Below, piece by piece: positions 29,907 to 32,388 of a stretch of DNA of 32,388 nt. Below the pieces are notes generated by a model. It saw nothing but the letters and a program-made list of their open reading frames with translations, did no database searches and had not been told where the DNA came from. Each line of letters opens with the position of its first letter. Within the stretch, counting starts at the first letter, position 1. The position numbers were made by a program, and so were the translations under genes. This stretch comes from Actinomycetes bacterium (GTDB taxonomy: Bacteria > Actinomycetota > Actinomycetes > Jiangellales > Jiangellaceae), in contig JAJYTA010000035.1 of NCBI GenBank assembly GCA_021793295.1, forward strand, positions 1 through 32,388. Reading direction: 5' to 3'.

Positions 29907-30049
29907 TGCAGATGCACGCGCAGCTGGGCGACGCATACGGCGTCGGTGGCGATGCCCTCCTCGCGCTGTTATGTCCGTCCGTGCCTCTTCCTTCCGTGTC
30001 GAAGTTGCCGGCGGAACGCTAAGTTAGGGCCGGGGCGGAGAGGATGACG

Positions 30050-31507
30050 ATGTGGACTCACACCCGGTCTTCGGGACGACGCGGGCCGAAAGGTGGGCGC
30101 ACGGGGGGCGCCACAGGCGACGCGGTGATCGATGCGGCCGGATTCGACGCCGGCGCTTCGTTTGACGGGGAGTCGCGTGACGGCGAGGACGACGCCGCCT
30201 GGTTCGGCGTCGATCAGGTTCAGGTGGACACTGAGGAGCCGATGCGTGGGGACGACCGGGTGGCGGAGGTCCACGAATTGTACGGCGAACGAGACACTGA
30301 GAACGTCCACCGCCATGCGGCCGACGCCCATGCCACGCGGCGTGCTGCCGCGGACCATGCGCGGGCGAGCGCCGAACCACAAGTGCGCTCGATGGGCTTC
30401 GACACCGAAGCGCTACGGGAGACGCTGGCCATGGTCGGCGACCGCCTGGACGAGCTCGGCGTCGATTTCTACGGCCGCTTCTTCGCGCTGGCTCCCGAGG
30501 CCCGGGAGCTGTTCGGGCCCAGCATGGAGGTGCAGCGCTCGCGTCTGCTCGGTGCTCTGGTGCGTATCGTCGGCACCGCCGACAACCGCGACGAGCTCGT
30601 GCCCTACCTCGAGGGTCTCGGCCGCGATCATCGCAAGTTCGGCGTCATCGACCAGCACTACGCACCGCTGGGAACCGCGCTGATCCTGGCGCTGCGCAAC
30701 ATGCTCGGCGACAAGTGGCAGCCGAGGCACGAGCAGGCCTGGATCGAGGCGTACGACGCCGTGGCGATGGCGATGTCCAGCGCTGCGGCCCGTGATGCCG
30801 TCATCTCGCCGCCGTGGTGGGACGCCGAGGTGGTCTATCACCGCCGGATCCTCGACGAGCTCGCGATCATTCAGGTCCGCCCGCACACCGACTTCCCCTA
30901 CCGCCCGGGCCAATATGCCTCCATCACGTCGCCGCGACGGCCGAAGATCTGGCGGGCGTACTCCATGGCCTCAGCGCCGCGCGATGACGGACTGGTCGAG
31001 TTCCACGTGCGCTCGGTCGGCGCCGGCTGGGTCAGCAGCGCGCTGGTCTGGCGTACCGAACCCGGCGACATCCTGCACCTCGGTGCGCCGCAGGGGGACG
31101 ACATCGCCAGCCCGCGCTCCGAGAACGACCTGCTCTGCATCGCCGGTGGCACCGGTATCGCGCCGGTGCTGGCCACGCTCCAAGAGCTCGAGCAGCGCCA
31201 GGACGGCCGCCGGGTGCACGTGTTCTACGCCGGTCGCGACCGCGACCACCTGTACGCGTTGCCACACCTGGAGTCCATCGGCGTGCGTTATCGCCGATTG
31301 ACCGTCGTGCCGGTGGTCTCGCCCGATGGCCCGACCGACCGCAGCCCCGACTTGATGGGCAACATCGTGGCGGCCTATGGCGACTGGCGGAAACACCGCG
31401 TCTACGTCGCAGGTCCCAGTTCGATGGTCTCCACGAGCCTCGAACGGCTGCGCGCCCAAGGAGTGCCCGACGAGCAGATCGTCCACGACGACTACGGACT
31501 CTGGTGA
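30050..31507 (+). CDS. Flavohemoglobin-like protein (globin + FAD/NAD domains) with N-terminal extension
   Basis: The product of about 485 residues has three parts. Residues about 1-115 are an acidic, His/Arg-rich extension not found in standard flavohemoglobins. A globin follows with B10 Tyr (DFYGRFF), a glutamine at the distal position (EVQRSRLL), proximal His (GRDHRKFG) and AWIEAYDAVA. A reductase part comes last, with the FAD motif RAYSMAS and the NAD(P) motif GGTGIAPV, ending at the VYVAGPSSMV strand. All residues for heme, FAD and NAD(P)H are there, so NO dioxygenation or similar redox chemistry is likely. ATG 30050 follows GGAGAGG (30037-30043). ATG 30044 overlaps that site. Internal ATGs at 30242 and 30392 would remove part or all of the extension. 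Confidence 0.85.
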   Translation: MWTHTRSSGRRGPKGGRTGGATGDAVIDAAGFDAGASFDGESRDGEDDAAWFGVDQVQVDTEEPMRGDDRVAEVHELYGERDTENVHRHAADAHATRRAAADHARASAEPQVRSMGFDTEALRETLAMVGDRLDELGVDFYGRFFALAPEARELFGPSMEVQRSRLLGALVRIVGTADNRDELVPYLEGLGRDHRKFGVIDQHYAPLGTALILALRNMLGDKWQPRHEQAWIEAYDAVAMAMSSAAARDAVISPPWWDAEVVYHRRILDELAIIQVRPHTDFPYRPGQYASITSPRRPKIWRAYSMASAPRDDGLVEFHVRSVGAGWVSSALVWRTEPGDILHLGAPQGDDIASPRSENDLLCIAGGTGIAPVLATLQELEQRQDGRRVHVFYAGRDRDHLYALPHLESIGVRYRRLTVVPVVSPDGPTDRSPDLMGNIVAAYGDWRKHRVYVAGPSSMVSTSLERLRAQGVPDEQIVHDDYGLW

Positions 31508-31519
31508 TCTATCGCCGCG

Positions 31520-31557
31520 TCTAGCGAACTCTAGGATCAGAACTAGATTCCGCTAGA
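31520..31557. promoter_or_regulatory. Four-CTAG palindromic operator-like site
   Basis: CTAG occurs at 31521, 31531, 31543 and 31553, at steps of 10, 12 and 10 bp. The outer arms TCTAGCG (31520-31526) and CGCTAGA (31551-31557) are a perfect inverted repeat and the inner TCTAG/CTAGA are inverted too. CTAG is normally rare in such genomes. It lies between two convergent stops (31507 and 31598). A GAGAGG and GTG follow it at 31556-31563, opening only a 19-codon frame. Confidence 0.6.
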
Positions 31558-31597: not shown

Positions 31598-32233
31598 TCA
31601 CGCGTGTGTCGGCTGGCTGAGCCCCAGGTGAACGGCGAAACCGCCGAGCAGGCTGCCGGTCACCCAACGTGCCACTCGGTCAGCGAGCTCGCTGCGGTTG
31701 AACAGGCTCTTGGCGGTCGCGGCCAGCAGGACCCACAGGGCGTTCACAGTCGCGGCCACGGCGACCTGGACCAGTCCGAGCAGCATGATCTGCACACTCG
31801 GGAGGCCGCGGCCGGGATCAACGAACTGCGGCAGCAGCGCCGCGTACATGAGCGCGACCTTCGGGTTGAGCAGGCAGGTGGCCAGCCCCATGTTGAACAA
31901 CCGGCGCGGCGAGTGGTTCGGAAGCTCTCCGGAACCGAAGACCCGGCGGCCACCGCGGACGATGCCCCAGGCCAGCCACAGCAGGTAGAGCGCTCCGGCG
32001 ATCTTCACCGCCAGGAACAGCTCTGGAACTGCGGCGAACAGAACCGCCAGTCCGGCAGCGGTGGCGGCGACGTAGCACAGCAAGCCCACGATGACGCCGG
32101 CCAGTGAGGTGAAGCCCGCGGCCGGGCCCTGGCTGATGGACCGGGACACCAGATACATCAGGTTCGGACCCGGGGTGATGACCAGGCCGAAGGCGATGAC
32201 CGCGACGCCGGCGACGGCGCCAGCCGTCACCAC
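31598..32233 (-). CDS. LysE/RhtB-family amino-acid exporter
   Basis: This 211-residue protein has six hydrophobic segments and the LysE family motif ITPGPNLMYLVSRSISQG in the first. A central GLATCLLNPKVALMYAALLPQFVDP and a C-terminal helix typical of RhtB proteins follow. It probably exports amino acids or derivatives across the membrane. The first GTG of a GTG-GTG pair (32233) has GGAG 6 nt upstream and starts just before TM1, as in relatives. A TTG at 32308 would add 25 polar, non-conserved residues. No LysR-type regulator is adjacent in the window. The gene converges on the flavohemoglobin-like gene across the CTAG-rich palindrome. Confidence 0.88.
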   Translation of the reverse strand: MVTAGAVAGVAVIAFGLVITPGPNLMYLVSRSISQGPAAGFTSLAGVIVGLLCYVAATAAGLAVLFAAVPELFLAVKIAGALYLLWLAWGIVRGGRRVFGSGELPNHSPRRLFNMGLATCLLNPKVALMYAALLPQFVDPGRGLPSVQIMLLGLVQVAVAATVNALWVLLAATAKSLFNRSELADRVARWVTGSLLGGFAVHLGLSQPTHA

Positions 32234-32346
32234 CGAGAGCTCCGAACCGGCGCCGTGGTGCTGCTCATCGATGTCCCCTTCCGCGTCGCGATCTGGCGAA
32301 TCGGACAACCGGCGCGGCTACGGCGACATTCCCGCACCGTGGTGTG

Positions 32347-32388
32347 TCACGTCGTGGCGTGCTTACGCAGATAGATGCCGAAGTGCGG
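32347..32388 (-). CDS. 3' end of an unidentified gene (truncated by window edge)
   Basis: The last 39 coding bases on the minus strand read PHFGIYLRKHATT and then TGA, with G/C in most third positions, as in the real genes here. It is too short to assign. If real, the gene runs in from the right edge and precedes the LysE-type exporter on the same strand, 113 bp upstream of that gene's start. Confidence 0.4.
   Translation of the reverse strand, partial: PHFGIYLRKHATT

Follow-up and report, generated by a model that had tools for sequence, protein, structure and literature searches.

What is the function of a 38-bp symmetric site that lies between two convergent genes in a Jiangellaceae genome? 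The array occupies positions 31520–31557 of the window, which is the whole 32,388-nucleotide stretch of DNA analysed here. Its sequence, TCTAGCGAACTCTAGGATCAGAACTAGATTCCGCTAGA, has the layout TCTAG-N5-TCTAG-N8-CTAGA-N5-CTAGA, with TCTAG half-sites at 31520–31524 and 31530–31534 and CTAGA half-sites at 31543–31547 and 31553–31557. The four CTAG tetramers begin at 31521, 31531, 31543 and 31553 in steps of 10, 12 and 10 bp, and the outer arms (TCTAGCG/CGCTAGA) are perfect. An initial sequence-only reading had described the symmetric site in exactly this form and had noted a GTG-initiated frame after the array that ends after 19 codons, which it does.

The array also resides between two convergent genes, as that reading held. 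Its left flank adjoins the 3′ end of a gene encoding a globin fused to a FAD/NAD reductase (30044–31507, plus strand; PF00042, PF00970 and PF00175), which resembles flavohemoglobin. To the right is a 711-bp LysE-family exporter gene (31598–32308, minus strand), assigned by PF01810, which in this genome separates the array from a gene for an AAA+/winged-helix ATPase. The 3′ end of the ATPase gene, which is likewise convergent with the globin/reductase gene, is present at 32347–32388 on the minus strand (stop codon 32347–32349); the window contig ends inside the gene, and the remainder is carried by contig C219 (L058 55–1251). Contigs C90 and C219 share a 96-bp overlap at their ends (window 32293–32388 and L058 1–96) with three mismatches, suggesting a strain mixture or an assembly error at the contig ends.

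A conserved DNA site in Jiangellaceae

The array is more than a chance occurrence, as 100 shuffles yielded 0 matches even when up to three mismatches were allowed. A search of the 4.67-Mb assembly for TCTAG-N5-TCTAG, proposed as a check by the initial reading, finds one place only, the window array. At up to three mismatches, the pattern search recovers only two arrays in this genome, both near the ATPase gene (the other is the promoter copy at C219:1262–1299), with no further arrays that would indicate a wider regulon. Only the window’s own genome was matched at up to one mismatch in a search of 198 genomes of the phylum (181 from other classes).

Among related genomes, 20 of 22 Jiangellaceae carry the array at up to three mismatches, against 2 for the reversed pattern. 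In Haloactinopolyspora alba and Jiangella, the array is found in the same place 3′ of the same globin/reductase gene, with fixed half-sites and freely varying spacers. The LysE gene is missing from this gap in H. alba and in most Jiangella, and the next gene in most relatives is instead a convergent gene that ends in TVPHFGIYLRKHATV or similar. Comparison of this gap had been suggested as a way to reveal an intact regulator gene that the window’s genome had lost. The array is indeed kept, but most relatives have the ATPase gene at this position; where the LysE insertion is absent, the gap leads straight into the ATPase gene, and the idea of a lost regulator gene was rejected. Jiangellaceae genomes also have a second, weaker array directly before the ATPase gene, and all of their arrays detected at up to three mismatches are close to this gene. 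In three other genomes (G004, G012 and G014), the array persists although a gene or additional DNA separates it from the ATPase gene. A third array in H. alba (L184 1501–1538; G001:C4:99132–99169) has 0 mismatches to the degenerate pattern and lies 7 kb from the ATPase gene, adjoining a conserved 134-aa gene (MVSIELARKLREAGLKWEPQPGDRF) whose relatives are found near the ATPase gene in Jiangella.

Symmetry of this kind can belong to a site in DNA or to a hairpin in RNA. Across 19 of the 3′ arrays from Jiangellaceae, 92% of half-site pairs are symmetric, whereas spacer pairing amounts to 33%, compared with 39% when spacers are shuffled between sequences. Because the half-sites are kept while the spacers do not pair, the array in Jiangellaceae is, judged from these alignments, a site in DNA rather than an RNA hairpin; the family exhibits no RNA-stem constraint and none of the pairing outside the half-sites that would characterize a structured RNA element. 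For other families, in which spacers pair in 64% of cases versus 54% when shuffled, a hairpin contribution is possible. This slight excess, the location between convergent genes and a predicted hairpin of −18 to −20 kcal/mol (z about −3) would suit a bidirectional transcription terminator, a function that we nevertheless regard as very unlikely. No G+C-rich stem followed by a T run exists at the array, half-site changes to GTAGA in Jiangellaceae break the stem, and a promoter carries the same array. Given the missing T tract, the lack of spacer pairing in Jiangellaceae and the lack of an Rfam match at the array, an RNA hairpin or terminator was rejected.

The array at the promoter of the ATPase gene

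The tie between the array and the ATPase gene extends across the class. For 60 ATPase orthologs from many families, scored against a degenerate array with a threshold of ≥15/20, the region within 110 bp 5′ of the start codon reaches this score in 54 cases, as opposed to 8 of 2,835 control windows (0.3%); the reversed pattern does so upstream of a single ortholog (1/60). Consistent with these scores, CTAG enrichment is confined to the 100 bp before the gene (89 occurrences over the 60 loci) and the 100 bp after it (47), compared with about 3 per 100-bp bin elsewhere. At the level of whole genomes, 51 of the 52 that carry the array (up to two mismatches) encode the ATPase, versus 120 of 394 overall (Fisher p = 2e-29), whereas no such association exists for the reversed pattern (3 of 12 genomes, p = 1). 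The neighbours on each side differ between families and the ATPase is constant. Downstream, an array scoring ≥15/20 within 200 bp is present for 17 of the 60 orthologs outside Jiangellaceae; thus, the 3′ copy is not universal.

The promoter array has a fixed place relative to a TANNNT box, which in 58 of 65 cases occurs at array offset 36, typically 6–8 bases before the start codon. Owing to this fixed offset and short distance, the ATPase promoter reads as leaderless, with a −10 element that overlaps the fourth half-site. The array before the gene is therefore placed over the −10, as in a promoter-overlapping operator. In contrast, the window copy does not lie on a promoter: TANNNT is absent at offset 36 on either strand, and no sigma-70-like site was found in the region. 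Among 23 arrays after the gene, the box is present at this offset in one (in the sense direction), with none listed in the other direction. Because it lacks the box where promoter copies have one, the window copy is, on sequence grounds, an array without a promoter. Its flanks are 65% and 70% GC, with no AT-rich stretch beside the array.

These findings bear on the possible roles that the sequence-only reading had offered. The conservation pattern lends good support to a site at which a DNA-binding protein sits as two dimers, in that the spacers change from family to family but the half-sites and their 10-12-10 spacing persist. The proposed promoter–operator remnant of a lost regulator gene fits poorly, as the likely regulator gene is next door and has a copy of the array at its promoter, whereas the window copy lacks the −10 box of the promoter copies. 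The absence of that box also leaves a small antisense RNA promoter without sequence support. No evidence emerged for a structural role.

The ATPase and its distant arrays

The ATPase is a protein of 398 amino acids with an N-terminal AAA+ domain (PF13191 AAA_16, 71–76 bits against a cut-off of 32.6). A predicted model (pLDDT 87.7) places a winged helix at the C terminus, and its best Foldseek matches in the PDB include Aeropyrum Orc1 with DNA and Pyrobaculum Cdc6 (2v1u, 1fnn and 2qby are among the structural matches), with RuvB also among the best. The fold is thus predicted to be Orc1/Cdc6-like, with the AAA+ domain followed by a winged helix as in that family; however, the protein scores 19.8 bits with the Orc1/Cdc6 sequence model TIGR02928, far below the cut-off of 181.3. 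Of 394 Actinomycetia genomes, 120 contain relatives (E ≤ 1e-30), and most full-length orthologs, distributed over many actinobacterial families, are about 68–80% identical. Searches for relatives among defence systems, phage families and PDB sequences gave weak matches or none, and the open-licence papers searched contain no account of the array or of the function of the ATPase that we could find. Both the array and its gene therefore appear to be undescribed in the searchable literature.

The recognition helix of the ATPase, KPSSLSPARDSLIKKGL, is nearly invariant in orthologs whose genes carry TCTAG arrays, and distant relatives have a different helix. Several of these distant relatives, on plasmids and chromosomes, have strong dyads with another sequence at the corresponding position upstream of the gene, for example on plasmids of Rhodococcus, Cellulosimicrobium and Clavibacter; divergent dyads clear enough to exceed all 40 shuffles are seen in only about a third of the distant relatives. 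Such joint change of helix and dyads is the trace expected of an autoregulator, although it falls short of proof. Loci L161–L166 encode relatives with 42–46% identity on plasmids of Mycobacterium gordonae, Paenarthrobacter, Rhodococcus, Sphingobium, Clavibacter and Cellulosimicrobium, and several of them carry long dyads of other sequence immediately before the start codon.

A small number of arrays are distant from the ATPase gene, as in genomes G109, G186 and G266 and between gyrB and gyrA in a genus (g43) that is probably Nocardioides, judged from gene content and the order of relatives. Here the gyrB–gyrA array occurs in 13 of 59 genomes at up to two mismatches (L062 6498–6535 and L169–L180), which are all of the genomes of this genus with an array at that threshold, and weaker three-half-site forms are present in the same gap of other members. 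The ATPase is encoded by all 13, and by 53 of the 59 overall. The gyrB–gyrA array is missing from the sampled other genera of the same family. From this placement, gyrA may be a target of the array system in Nocardioides. In this genus, the ATPase gene is often tens of kilobases to about 120 kb from gyrB–gyrA or, in single-contig assemblies, from the sequence start (G081, G428, G420, G435, G400, G405, G410, G412, G416, G429 and G436), and apparently lies near the replication origin.

A putative auxiliary operator

We consider it rather probable that the window array is a downstream auxiliary operator of the adjacent, autoregulated ATPase gene. The ATPase itself most likely would bind the inverted TCTAG half-site arrays, either as two dimers or as a small ATP-dependent oligomer. 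The promoter array lies over the −10 of the putative leaderless promoter, and its occupancy would repress transcription. The window array, beyond the 3′ end of the gene and without a promoter, would act together with the promoter array by increasing the local concentration of the protein or by forming a DNA loop.

Operators of the QacR type accommodate a pair of repressor dimers on a single inverted array. The arrays described here resemble them in having four half-sites on one helix face that cover a promoter, but no TetR-family gene is conserved beside them, and the constant neighbour is an AAA+ ATPase. A precedent for a protein of the latter type binding its own promoter is provided by archaeal Orc1-2, which also combines AAA+ and winged-helix domains (PMC9738581). 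Although the ATPase shares this architecture and a similar predicted fold with the Sulfolobus protein, a non-initiator Orc1/Cdc6 regulator, the latter is archaeal, uses a single hexanucleotide element (DDRE motif ANTTTC) rather than a four-half-site array, and has a wide regulon, whereas nearly all sites here are at one locus.

Other explanations compete with the auxiliary operator. Binding by the ATPase is inferred, and the Nocardioides gyrB–gyrA arrays are distant from its gene. The arrays could instead be operators of a different, unlinked regulator, with the ATPase gene (and, in Nocardioides, gyrA) under its control. This is unlikely, given the near-invariable presence of the ATPase in array-bearing genomes, its constancy as flanking neighbours change by family, the separate dyads of distant ATPases and the restriction of Jiangellaceae arrays to the vicinity of the gene. 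A replication or licensing factor acting at origin-like sites, comparable to the ORBs beside archaeal orc1/cdc6 genes, would account for the Orc1/Cdc6-like fold, for the inverted sites adjoining the gene and for the roughly 60–300 kb that separate the ATPase gene from gyrB–gyrA in Nocardioides (both on one contig). We find this quite doubtful, as the protein falls far below the cut-off of the sequence model for archaeal initiators, the copy that is conserved goes with a promoter −10 and shows no sign of an origin, and the flanks of the window copy provide no AT-rich stretch. Only a very small chance is assigned to the window array being a non-functional remnant that the LysE insertion has cut off from the ATPase gene: the 711-bp gene does intervene, but the window copy has a perfect score, better than that of the promoter copy, and arrays are kept in the three relatives with intervening DNA. 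More speculatively, and with low probability, this class-wide Orc1/Cdc6-like protein, whose gene is apparently near the origin in Nocardioides at least, could read TCTAG arrays at its own gene and at gyrA (in Nocardioides), coupling its level and ATP state to DNA topology or replication.

With the auxiliary-operator reading, a cis-element would now be assigned to a protein family that keeps about 70% identity or more over many actinobacterial families and for which no described function was found. One promoter and one 38-bp site offer a ready assay, and the gyrB–gyrA copies provide a first lead to what the ATPase may control.
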